Source: Acidipila sp. (GTDB taxonomy: Bacteria > Acidobacteriota > Terriglobia > Acidiferrales > UBA7541). Taken from it: a stretch of DNA of 64,000 nucleotides. How positions within the stretch are numbered: position 1 is the first letter of the stretch; every line of letters begins with the position of its first letter. This document shows positions 3,296 through 7,724 of this stretch, in pieces. The notes beneath the pieces were generated by a model. The model was not told the DNA's origin. It worked only from the letters and a program-made list of their open reading frames with translations, and ran no database searches. The translations under genes were made by a program, and so were the position numbers. The stretch covers positions 1 through 64,000 of the forward strand of contig JAAFGT010000008.1 in assembly GCA_010365215.1 (NCBI GenBank). The letters run 5' to 3'.

Positions 3296-4584
3296 TCGTG
3301 CTGCTGATCGGCATCGGCGTGGTGGCTCTCTGCGCGGGACTTTCCGTCATCGCCTGGCTCGACCGCATCTATATCGAGCTCGGCCGTATGACCACAGGCC
3401 GCGTGCATGCCAACCTCGACGTCTTCGTAGAGGAAATCGAGCCGCTGCTGAAGCTCGAGCGCGCCCCGGCGGCCATGAGTTTCCGCCTGCTTTCCAATCT
3501 CGGACTGGTACTTGTCGCCGCGGCCACCTCGGTGGGCGTCTCTCACTACGCGGAAGCTCGATGGGAGTTGCCCCTCGAAGAAACCATATTCCTCATTGGC
3601 CAGGTCTTTTTCTTTCTTCATCTCATTCCTTATCTTTTGCTGACACGCACCAGGGGCCGCTGGGCCAAGCCGTTTGTCCCCGTGGTTCGCATGCTGTGCT
3701 ACCTGGTCTGGCCGCTGCGTGCGTTGCTGGAAGTAGGCGTCACCGTGGCGCATCTCCACGAGGATAAGCCTGGGGAGCGCCCCTCTTCCCAGGAAAGCCT
3801 CGAGGCGCTGGTAGAGGCCGGGGAAGAACAGGGCATTCTCGAGCGCGGCGACGCGGAGCTGATCGAGCAGGTGATGGAATTTGGAGACAAGCGCGCGCGC
3901 GAAGTTATGACTCCTCGGCCGGACGTGGTGGCCGTTGCCGCCACCACATCGCTCGAAGAGCTGCGCCGCCTGCTGGTGGCCACTCGCTATTCGCGCGTGC
4001 CGGTGTTTGAGGAAACCCTGGACCATGTCATCGGCATTGCCTATGCGCGTGACCTGCTGGGCGTGCCCGACCAGGAAGCTGCCCGCCGCACCGTGCGCGA
4101 GATTTTACGTCCGGTGATCTTTGTACCGGAAACCAAGCTGGTTTCCCAGTTGCTCCGTGAAATGCAGCAGAAGAAGCAGCAGATGGCCATCGCCATCGAC
4201 GAATATGGCAACGTCGCCGGCATCGTTACGGCCGAGGATCTGATTGAAGAGATTGTCGGGGAGATCGGCGAGGAGGATCGCCGGCCCGCACCCGACGTGG
4301 TGCGCGAGATGGATGGCGCGCTGCTGATTCGCGGCAGCCTGGCCCTGGATCGGTTCGAAGATCTGCTCGGACGGCGCCTTGATCGCGGCCCGGGTGCCGC
4401 AGCCACCACCGTTTCCGGCTTGCTCAATGAAATTGCCGGCCACGTGCCTGTCGCGGGGGAAAGAATCGAACTGGACGGTTTGCGATTCGAAGTGCTCGAG
4501 GCCAACCAGCGAAAGGTCCTGCGCCTGCGTGCGCGCGTTCACGCTCTGCCTGCTTTCGGAAAAGCTGCGCCCGCCGGCTCCTGA
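3292..4584 (+). CDS. CorC/HlyC-type CBS-domain membrane protein
   Basis: This 430-residue protein belongs to the hemolysin-related CNNM/CorC family, linked to Mg2+/Co2+ transport or membrane integrity. It has an N-terminal hydrophobic helix (about 1-20), further membrane segments in the first third (for example EETIFLIGQVFFFLHLIPYLL at about 97-117), and an acidic linker. A CBS pair follows at about 195-330 (REVMTPRPDVVAV and the second-repeat IDEYGNVAGIVTAEDLIEEI). The CorC_HlyC domain fills about 345-420. The start overlaps the ybeY stop, so translation is coupled. The N-terminal membrane part looks shorter and more divergent than a full DUF21 domain. The direction of ion transport cannot be read from sequence. 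Confidence 0.9.
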   Translation: MIVLLIGIGVVALCAGLSVIAWLDRIYIELGRMTTGRVHANLDVFVEEIEPLLKLERAPAAMSFRLLSNLGLVLVAAATSVGVSHYAEARWELPLEETIFLIGQVFFFLHLIPYLLLTRTRGRWAKPFVPVVRMLCYLVWPLRALLEVGVTVAHLHEDKPGERPSSQESLEALVEAGEEQGILERGDAELIEQVMEFGDKRAREVMTPRPDVVAVAATTSLEELRRLLVATRYSRVPVFEETLDHVIGIAYARDLLGVPDQEAARRTVREILRPVIFVPETKLVSQLLREMQQKKQQMAIAIDEYGNVAGIVTAEDLIEEIVGEIGEEDRRPAPDVVREMDGALLIRGSLALDRFEDLLGRRLDRGPGAAATTVSGLLNEIAGHVPVAGERIELDGLRFEVLEANQRKVLRLRARVHALPAFGKAAPAGS

Positions 4585-4624: not shown

Positions 4625-6502
4625 CTATTTTTTCTTTTTTGCCACGGATGTCGACCCCTGCTCGTACAGCACCATTTCCGTCACCGCTCCACTGGCGTCC
4701 TTCTTGAATTCCACGCTGAACGAGCCCGCTCCCTGCACGTCAAAAGTCAGACCGCGCACCGGCACCATCACCCGCTCCGGCTGCCCGGGAAAGCTCATCA
4801 CGAGAGTGTCGTTTCCCTTCAACGCAATCGTCACCGTTGCGCCGCCGACTTCATACTGCCCGGCGAGCGGCTCGAGAAAACTTTTTTCGCGCATGCGCGG
4901 GTCCGGTGCGCGTGTAAAGACGATCTCCTTCACACTGGGTTCCAGTGGCACCAGGATGCTGTCGATGTCGCCCTTCAGATCAGTGGTGAAGCGCACTTTC
5001 ATCTTCTCGAACGCGTTGAGCGGATCGGGTGGCGCCTCGAAAACATCATAGTGAAAGTGCCGCATCGGCGAGGTCATGCGGTTATAGGTGAAGGCAAGCG
5101 TGCCGGCCTCTTTGCCCGGATCGATCTGCACCGTGCCGTAGCCGGCATTCTCGTAGGGACCCACGTATTCGTCGAGAGCGTGCGATGGGTGCGTGCCGAT
5201 TTTCTGCCCGGTGTAGCCTTTTGTTTTCGCCTCCGCTTCCGCGTCTTCGCCTTTTTTCTGGTCGCTCAGGTAGCGCGCGCTCCAGTTCACCGGCTCCAGG
5301 TTGAGCAGCCGGTCGAAGACGCCGTACATGGCCACCGCGGTCAAATCGTTTTTGTCGGAATCCAGATTGGTCAGCACCACCACGCCGATGTTGTCCTGCG
5401 TAAGGAATCCCAACTGCGCGGTAAAGCCGTCGATCGCTCCGCCATGCTGCACAAAGCGATGCCCGCGGTAGCCGCCGATGCGGAAGGCCATCCCGTAGCT
5501 TCCAAACCCCATCTCCGGATAACCCGGCTGTCCTTGTATGACCATCTGTGGCGTCTGCATCTGAAGTTCGTTGCTCTCCGAGAGCAGCTGCTTCTCTCCG
5601 GCTTTTCCGTGCGCCATGTGAAAGAGCAGATAGCGCGCCATCTCATCGACGTTTGAGTTGATCGATCCGGCCGGCGCGATTTCATCCACGCCCTGAAACG
5701 GAATTTCTACCACCTTGCCGTTTGCGTTGCGGTACGGTCTTGCAAAATCCGCAGCCTTCTGCGAATCCGTCACCGAGAAATTGCTGCTGGTCATATTCAG
5801 CGGTGCGAATATCCGCTGCCGCACCAGATCTTCCCATTTCATCCCCGAGATGTGCTGCGCCAGCACGCCAGCGGTAACAAACATCAGATTGTTGTACTGG
5901 TAAGTGCTGCGAAAATCTTTGCTGGGTTCGAGGAAGCGCAGCCGCTCCACCATCTGTTCGCGCGTGAGCGTGGTGTTGTACCACAGCGCGTCATGGCGCG
6001 GCAGCCCCGAGCGGTGCGTCACCAGGTCGCGCGGCGTCATGTGCCCGGTGGCTACGTCGTCGTTCATGCGGAATGCTGGAAGATATTCGCGTACCGGCCG
6101 GTCCCAATCGAGCTTGCCTTCATCCGCGAGCATTCCCAGCGCTGAAACGGTAAACGACTTGGTGATGGAGCCGATGGCGAAAAGTGTTTTCGGCGTCACC
6201 GCACGATTATTCTTCACGTCGCGCGCGCCATAGCCCTTCGACAGAATGATCTTTCCGTCTCTGACTACCGCAATCGCCAGTCCCGGCACTTTCCAGTCTT
6301 TCATCACCTGAGCCATCCACGTATCCAGTCCGTCGAAAGGCGCTTGCGGCGCGCTGTTCTCAAGCTGAATAGCGGGTCGTCGCGATTTTGGCGATGTGGC
6401 TTGGCTCTTCTTCTGGTCGGCTACCTGCGCCGTGGCGGAGCAGCCAACGAGCAGTAAAATCACCATTAACCGGCGCACTAGCGAATATCTGTATTTCCGC
6501 AC
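4625..6502 (-). CDS. Secreted serine hydrolase, beta-lactamase class C/PBP4* type, with DUF3471-like C-terminus
   Basis: A probable exported esterase, D-aminopeptidase or penicillin-binding-type hydrolase. I chose the GTG at 6502 because GGAGG precedes it by five bases; an upstream GTG at 6523 lacks a ribosome site. The N-terminus (RKYRYSLVRR, then LMVILLLVGC) is a signal peptide ending in a lipobox-like LVGC, so it may be a lipoprotein. The catalytic S-I-T-K lies at about residues 112-115, YNN at about 203-205, and a late HGG triad element follows. The C-terminal 150 residues resemble DUF3471, common behind this domain. The protein ends in a Lys run. It faces the corC operon tail to tail. 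The class is sure and the substrate unknown. Confidence 0.9.
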   Translation of the reverse strand: MRKYRYSLVRRLMVILLLVGCSATAQVADQKKSQATSPKSRRPAIQLENSAPQAPFDGLDTWMAQVMKDWKVPGLAIAVVRDGKIILSKGYGARDVKNNRAVTPKTLFAIGSITKSFTVSALGMLADEGKLDWDRPVREYLPAFRMNDDVATGHMTPRDLVTHRSGLPRHDALWYNTTLTREQMVERLRFLEPSKDFRSTYQYNNLMFVTAGVLAQHISGMKWEDLVRQRIFAPLNMTSSNFSVTDSQKAADFARPYRNANGKVVEIPFQGVDEIAPAGSINSNVDEMARYLLFHMAHGKAGEKQLLSESNELQMQTPQMVIQGQPGYPEMGFGSYGMAFRIGGYRGHRFVQHGGAIDGFTAQLGFLTQDNIGVVVLTNLDSDKNDLTAVAMYGVFDRLLNLEPVNWSARYLSDQKKGEDAEAEAKTKGYTGQKIGTHPSHALDEYVGPYENAGYGTVQIDPGKEAGTLAFTYNRMTSPMRHFHYDVFEAPPDPLNAFEKMKVRFTTDLKGDIDSILVPLEPSVKEIVFTRAPDPRMREKSFLEPLAGQYEVGGATVTIALKGNDTLVMSFPGQPERVMVPVRGLTFDVQGAGSFSVEFKKDASGAVTEMVLYEQGSTSVAKKKK

Positions 6503-6618
6503 TATTCCCTCCAATGTGCACACGTGGGCGCCGCTCAGTAGTACTGGAGCCGCTACCCTGGTCCCCCGACATTTCTTTCGTGCGCTTGGCCACGCAGACC
6601 GCTATCATCGTTGTGTCA

Positions 6619-7632
6619 ATGATCGCCAAATCACACTCCTCCAAATCACGGTCTATCAAATCCGAGAACCCGAAAACAGGCGTCTCCAAAACGGAGACCT
6701 CCAAAACGGAGATCTCGAAAACACGGATCTACAAATCAGGAAATGTCGCCATTGTCGGCCGCCCCAACGCCGGCAAGTCCACTCTGGTTAACGCTCTCAC
6801 CGGACATAAGGTAGCGATCGTTTCCCGGCTCCCCCAGACTACGCGCAATCGCATCCGGGGAATCGTACACCGGGAAGAGGGAGAAATCGTCTTTATCGAT
6901 ACGCCCGGCATTATCCGCCGCGATTCGGCATTGACCCGCCAGATGATGGATGAAGTGGTGCACGCGCTCGATGAGATCGATGTGCTCGTCCTCATTGTGG
7001 ATGTAGGCAAAAAATTCGGCGCCGGCGATCGCCACGCCCTCGATCTCGCCGGTAAGTTCAGCGGTCCGCGTTTTCTTCTGCTCAATAAAATCGACATCAA
7101 CGCCAAAGAAACCCTGCTGCCCATGATGGACCTCTATGGCAAGGCGCTTCCGTTCGCGGAGATTATTCCCATTTCCGCCAAGAAAGGCGAGGGCCACGCG
7201 CTCCTGATTGAAAAGCTTTTGGAGCATCTCCCGCAAGGCGAGGCCCGTTTCCCGGAGGATGAGTATACCGATCAACCCGAGCGCTTCCTCGCTTCGGAAA
7301 TCATTCGCGAGAAGGTGCTGCACCACACGCGCGAAGAGGTGCCCCATGCCGTGGCTGTGCTGCTGGACAATTGGGACGAGAAGGGCAAGTTAATCCGTAT
7401 TCGCGCCACCATCTACGTCGAGCGCGACGGGCAGAAAGGCATCATCATCGGAAAAGGCGGCGCCATGTTGAAGGAAATCGGCACGCAAGCCCGCAAGGAG
7501 CTGGAGGTCATCTTCGGCGTCAAGATTTTTCTCGAGCTTTTCGTGAAGGCCCAGGCCAACTGGCGGGAGACCCCGGCCCTGGTCCGCCAGCTCGACTGGC
7601 GCCTGCAACTCGACCAGCTTGCCGAGGAGTAG
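6619..7632 (+). CDS. era: GTPase Era with N-terminal pentapeptide-repeat extension
   Basis: Era is the essential KH-domain GTPase that binds the 3' end of 16S rRNA during 30S assembly. Counting from the ATG at 6619 (337 residues), G1 is GRPNAGKS at 47-54, G3 is DTPG, G4 is NKID, and the C-terminal KH domain carries GKGG inside GIIIGKGGAML. A normal Era begins about eight residues before the G1 motif, at the segment here equal to YKSGNVAIVG. This protein instead carries about 37 extra residues in which Lys-Ser/Thr returns at exact five-residue spacing. A GTG two codons upstream (6613) is an alternative start. The gene diverges from the serine hydrolase with only about 115 bp between them. Confidence 0.95.
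   Translation: MIAKSHSSKSRSIKSENPKTGVSKTETSKTEISKTRIYKSGNVAIVGRPNAGKSTLVNALTGHKVAIVSRLPQTTRNRIRGIVHREEGEIVFIDTPGIIRRDSALTRQMMDEVVHALDEIDVLVLIVDVGKKFGAGDRHALDLAGKFSGPRFLLLNKIDINAKETLLPMMDLYGKALPFAEIIPISAKKGEGHALLIEKLLEHLPQGEARFPEDEYTDQPERFLASEIIREKVLHHTREEVPHAVAVLLDNWDEKGKLIRIRATIYVERDGQKGIIIGKGGAMLKEIGTQARKELEVIFGVKIFLELFVKAQANWRETPALVRQLDWRLQLDQLAEE
6625..6744 (+). repeat. 15-bp in-frame repeat array at the 5' end of era
   Basis: Eight 15-bp units encode AKSHS, SKSRS, IKSEN, PKTGV, SKTET, SKTEI, SKTRI and YKSGN. Lys falls at residues 4, 9, 14, 19, 24, 29, 34 and 39, always followed by Ser or Thr. Units 5 and 6 (TCCAAAACGGAGACC and TCCAAAACGGAGATC, 6685-6714) differ by one base, which suggests recent duplication. 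The last unit is the conserved Era start itself. Confidence 0.85.
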
Positions 7633-7685
7633 CGCTGTCGCAGAAATTCTCGTTGTCCTGATTCCTCATTGATTCCAAGTGCGCG

Positions 7686-7724
7686 TCCAAACATCGAGTC
7701 CAAACATCGAGTTCAAACATCTAG
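7686..7724. repeat. Three tandem 13-bp repeats between era and ntrX
   Basis: Two exact copies of TCCAAACATCGAG (7686-7698, 7699-7711) are followed by a third with two changes (TTCAAACATCTAG, 7712-7724). The third copy contributes the stop codon of ntrX on the minus strand (7721-7723). The array fills part of the convergent spacer and is not a hairpin, so it is not a terminator. The core TCCAAA also occurs in the era 5' repeat. Confidence 0.85.

Follow-up and report, generated by a model that had tools for sequence, protein, structure and literature searches.

Introduction

Proteins of the Era class bind the 3' end of 16S rRNA (GAUCACCUCC). Fusions of further domains to Era are reported to be extremely rare, which has been ascribed to the lack of room on the small subunit as it is assembled (PMC10582724). 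Tails of short lysine repeats have been described in other proteins, namely actinobacterial TopA and HupB, where they stabilise nucleic-acid binding (PMC7398561). A TANNNT element about 10 bp before the start codon is the signature of bacterial leaderless genes, which make up 13.3% of genes on average in three Acidobacteria (PMC3160421). A literature search for an N-terminal repeat on Era returned no matching report among the titles and abstracts retrieved.

Here we describe an era gene from the window, a 64,000-nucleotide stretch of a soil-type Acidobacteriota genome. Its core is standard; what is unusual is a repeat-built N-terminal tail on an otherwise ordinary protein.

Results

Era and its N-terminal array

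The gene and the elements of its array are as follows.

6619-7632, plus strand: era, 337 amino acids; the NCBIfam Era model spans residues 38-325, and residues 1-37 are extra
6619-6738, plus strand: eight degenerate 15-bp units, each encoding an xxxK(S/T) pentapeptide; lag-15 identity 65/108
6682-6698, plus strand: inverted repeat GTCTCC-AAAAC-GGAGAC (hairpin) in the youngest units, the unit being partly palindromic
6733-6741, plus strand: AAATCAGGA, Lys-Ser-Gly, the ancestral Era FKSG codons at the end of the array, from alignment with relatives

Era was read from the sequence alone as an essential GTPase with a basic N-terminal tail, and domain assignment supports an intact Era. In the NCBIfam search it scored 353.9 bits against NF000908 (cutoff 237) and 287.4 bits against TIGR00436, and Pfam assigns MMR_HSR1 and KH_2. 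The GTPase motifs GxPNxGKST (G1), DTPG and NKxD are present as GRPNAGKST, DTPG and NKID, and the C-terminal type II KH domain (PF07650, 73.8 bits, residues 240-316) is modelled with its helices and strands. Era is single copy in the genome, the remaining matches being weak and to Der-like GTPases, and GGATCACCTCCTTT has one match in the genome, at the expected 16S 3' end. Two residues depart from the relatives: residue 42 is Asn where the relatives almost always have Phe (SGF to SGN), and residue 99, after DTPG(I), is Ile in place of His.

In an AlphaFold2 model built from 40 sequences most of the core has pLDDT above 90, and nearly all of residues 1-33 fall below 50. The core is confidently folded and the tail is predicted to be disordered. 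The tail carries a net charge of about +7 and has the make-up of a lysine-repeat tail, that is, a terminal segment, predicted to be disordered, with eight Lys units and 19% Lys.

The eight units translate as MIAKS HSSKS RSIKS ENPKT GVSKT ETSKT EISKT RIYKS, followed directly by GNVAIVGRPNAGKST, the Era G1 motif. Lys stands at positions 4, 9, 14, 19, 24, 29, 34 and 39, each time followed by Ser or Thr, exactly as had been read, and Ser/Thr make up 15 of 41 residues. The period is one of DNA as well as of protein: none of 100,000 codon shuffles reached the 65 lag-15 matches, the best giving 54. Identity at lag 30 is 52/93 and most other lags give 20-40. By this lag-identity measure the period-15 signal is the strongest in the window. 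When the units are cut in the register TCCAAAACGGAGAYC, a single base separates unit 5 from unit 6, as had been read. The term minisatellite, used in the sequence-only reading, holds for the 15-bp array itself and fails in so far as it implies a fresh one, since neighbouring units are only about 60% identical. A recent look is confined to units 5 to 7, and TRF calls only this youngest core (6684-6722, 2.6 copies, 91%). The tail had also been called growing, which the comparison, made with genomes from outside the genus, does not support. The inverted repeat at 6682-6698 is a possible aid to slippage.

Two things never vary over the eight units, the Lys codon and, in the Ser/Thr codon, the second base; the 40 differences between neighbours lie in the other columns. 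At least four invariant columns arise under random placement with p about 1e-4, in a column test chosen post hoc with the pattern already seen. The result suggests, but does not prove, that the Lys and Ser/Thr columns are conserved and the rest drift. The Lys codon is AAA in 8/8 units (P 0.0018 at genome usage). AAATCA is present in units 1, 2 and 8, and the repeat does look made from the first codons of Era itself, as had been proposed. The nine bases of AAATCAGGA recur unchanged at the matching position in relatives L012 and L063. The last unit, taken at first for the normal Era start, is homologous to FKSG in relatives; the ancestral start codon, in contrast, probably lies at unit 1.

Start codon and promoter box

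6603-6608, plus strand: TATCAT, a -10-like element 10 nt 5' of the era start and the sole TANNNT in 6561-6760
6619-6621, plus strand: ATG, most likely the true and ancestral era start codon, from alignment with L007 and L047

The stretch from box to start reads TATCAT-cgttgtgtca-ATG here, TACAAT-cgttgtctgc-ATG in L007 and TACAAT-cgttgtactc-ATG in L047. A TANNNT box stands 6-11 nt before the own era start in 30/42 examined relatives outside genus g6; the search took the best of the candidate starts lying up to 75 residues before the conserved core, so that a few of the 30 may be chance. The background for such boxes is 3.1% of random ATGs in the genome. No Shine-Dalgarno sequence precedes the ATG at 6619, and most relatives are without one too. 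The gene thus shows the TA-led leaderless arrangement, in which a TANNNT precedes the start codon by about 10 bp and no Shine-Dalgarno is present. From 6622 to G1 there is no in-frame ATG, GTG or TTG, only ATC and ATT codons, and 6561-6760 holds no second -10-like box or promoter within the array. Because the box before 6619 is alone in its surroundings and similarly placed in the relatives, the era mRNA probably begins at this ATG or only a few bases away, that is, leaderless or nearly so. By the same comparison, this ATG is probably the ancestral start, and the array would lie between it and the ancestral F-K-S-G codons. We regard translation of the tail from 6619 as very probable.

Tandem arrays in the same genome

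Genome-wide statements, here and above, refer to 773 kb of stretches sampled from the same genome. These contain about 80 short degenerate tandem arrays, many with period 15. At a lag identity of at least 60/108 there are 12 distinct arrays, and 6/12 outscore the era array. Judging by these numbers, the genome is generally prone to tandem duplication. The array as a dispersed genomic repeat was rejected, there being no second copy in the genome.

Some individual arrays deserve mention. The C-terminal end of PhoH (1690-2775) holds a degenerate 15-bp array at 2684-2734, encoding an Arg/Asp-rich pentapeptide tail (RERTPGDRAAGDRTPRD), which is the second strongest period of the window by the lag-identity measure. 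Elsewhere in the genome, a peptidyl-prolyl isomerase-like protein (L076:3118-3928) ends in KSPAK repeats from a 15-bp array (3857-3904). Just 3' of era, a 13-bp array (GTCCAAACATCGA x2.8, 7685-7721) separates the gene from a convergent one for an NtrC-type regulator. On the other side, a beta-lactamase-family serine hydrolase gene with DUF3471 (4625-6523, minus strand) is flanked by the CNNM/CorC gene and by era and runs divergently to the latter; no homologue of it was found at the era-flanking loci of the relatives compared, within the available flanks.

Distribution among relatives

Among 89 genomes of the family, 85 of which gave matches at the cutoff, no other match aligned along the array, and none of the Era N-termini of relatives read directly contains it. 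The array as a family-wide trait was rejected on both counts. In a class sample of 399 genomes the own genome alone matched, at a cutoff (E 1e-9) so strict that even the Era cores of relatives were missed. The contig scan found no close relatives. The nearest named one, a Candidatus Acidiferrales MAG (Acidobacteriota), is distant, with 61% identity over the Era core. The usual Era start in the family is about 11 residues before G1.

Two further genera of the family, g6 and g12, do carry basic N-arms on Era. Like the tail described here they are Lys-rich and stand before F(K/R)SGF. Arms of g6 are mostly 6-26 aa long; Lys makes up 19-20% of the arm in g1 and g6, against a Lys content of 3.6% for crude long ORFs from the genome. 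The g12 extensions (L018, L021, L028, L030 and L195) have about 58-80 residues and are strongly basic, with 43% K+R in the first 20 aa; past the first 20-25 residues they become acidic and Pro/Ala-rich, unlike the array tail. Neither g6 nor g12 arms show repeats (by eye) or pair their Lys with Ser/Thr. A leaderless-type promoter stands at the arm start in 4/5 g12 loci (L018, L021, L028 and L195), whereas most g6 era genes, unlike the one in the window, have no promoter box. In the Era tree the base of the family is poorly resolved and this Era sits on a long branch, and therefore the tree gives no count of independent N-arm gains.

Discussion

We propose that era is driven by its own promoter and read from a leaderless or near-leaderless mRNA beginning at the ATG at 6619. 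Between this start codon and FKSG/G1, 15-bp stretches carrying the ancestral Lys-Ser codons would have been duplicated in tandem, adding about 35 residues. Translated, these would form a disordered basic arm of net charge about +7 ahead of an Era with ordinary GTPase and KH domains. The Lys-Ser/Thr pairs would have been retained while the spacer residues drifted, and by analogy with other lysine-repeat tails the arm would most likely lend Era additional RNA affinity of loose specificity, towards 16S rRNA or the pre-30S particle. To this reading as a whole we assign a probability of roughly one half. The array, its frame, the lack of other starts, the position of the promoter, the predicted disorder and the column conservation come directly from computation. 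An RNA-affinity arm is favoured by that conservation, by the basic arms of g6 and g12 and by the lysine-repeat tails of TopA and HupB, and the recurrence of a basic Era N-arm across genera suggests that the arm is useful. Against a functional arm, most relatives are without one, so that it must be dispensable for Era function in general, and arrays are so common in this genome that era may have acquired its own by chance.

The last point leads to neutral slippage, a live alternative that we consider somewhat less likely than the arm. A chance in-frame 15-bp array behind the start codon would be translated and tolerated, with no function. Scattered arrays of the same period, the variable length of the Era N-terminus across bacteria and the predicted disorder of the tail are what it would lead one to find. 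Against it speak the non-random conservation of the Lys and Ser/Thr columns, the basic arms in other genera of the family, and the preservation of frame and openness through the array despite about 40% divergence of neighbouring units.

Selection could also act on the message, with the peptide as a by-product. A-rich codons would keep the leaderless 5' end unfolded, put distance between the start codon and the structured G1-coding region, and so raise initiation. The first 60 nt fold with -3.8 kcal/mol, whereas 98% of the crude ORF starts in the sample fold more strongly (mean -14.7). Of 32 boxed era genes, the four whose 5' ends fold most weakly all have long N-extensions (5' folding in extended versus other genes, p=0.0018, the extended rows being partly related). 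The use of AAA for every Lys, a point against the arm, fits retention at the DNA or mRNA level as well as it fits selection on the protein. Nevertheless, about 12-20 codons would suffice for this effect, the whole array folds better than its own shuffles (z -2.67), most leaderless relatives cope with -12 to -20 kcal/mol, and RNA leaves the Lys/Ser-Thr register unexplained. We therefore consider this explanation improbable.

The array might instead be an untranslated or alternative leader, with Era starting at the last unit or later, which the sequence-only reading had itself named as the result that would overturn it. The usual start of relatives close to G1 and the missing Shine-Dalgarno before 6619 point that way. 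Yet relatives mostly lack a Shine-Dalgarno as well and keep the box at a similar distance, the reading frame is open throughout, and the array offers neither a start codon nor a second box. Such a leader is very unlikely.

By analogy with the acetylation reported for HupB lysine repeats (PMC7398561), the eight K-S/T sites might be phosphorylated or acetylated and so tune RNA binding. The regular K-(S/T) spacing and the richness of the tail in Ser/Thr would suit such a platform, but the arms of g6 and g12 are Lys-rich with no S/T pairing, the analysis gave no evidence of phosphorylation, and we hold this to be highly doubtful. It is equally hard to credit that the repeat is a self-regulatory RNA element, at which Era would bind its own leaderless mRNA and so repress it. 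The start of the era message (AUCACACUCCUCC, from 6630) resembles the 16S 3' end (AUCACCUCC), Era's binding target; AUCACACUCC at 6630-6642 is close to it, and ATCAC(N)CTCC occurs 15 times in 1.55 Mb, both strands of the sample being counted, or 0.0012 times per 120 nt. The match was found post hoc, however, has a one-base insertion, is lacking in relatives and is possibly coincidence.

The disordered basic arm, which we prefer to these alternatives, occurs in a family where basic Era N-arms recur, and it would allow one to test directly whether duplicating simple sequence behind a start codon can give assembly GTPases more affinity for RNA. Since every base past the ATG is read, a leaderless start renders such duplications coding by default.

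Compared with bacterial Era (NF000908 / TIGR00436), the protein shares the GTPase and KH domains, the single copy and the neighbourhood phoH-ybeY-CNNM-era, and differs by about 35 extra N-terminal residues from eight pentapeptide repeats. YbeY-Era fusions (PMC10582724) likewise add sequence at the Era N-terminus, but there it is a folded nuclease domain, whereas here it is a disordered repeat and ybeY is a separate gene. The tails of TopA and HupB/HupS (PMC7398561) are likewise short, degenerate, Lys-rich repeats, basic and carried by a nucleic-acid-binding protein. Those tails are C-terminal and on DNA-binding proteins; the one in the window is N-terminal, on an RNA-binding GTPase, with K-(S/T) every five residues. 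The Era tail stands outside the TopA and HupB families, and its action, if it works, would be like that of lysine-repeat tails.
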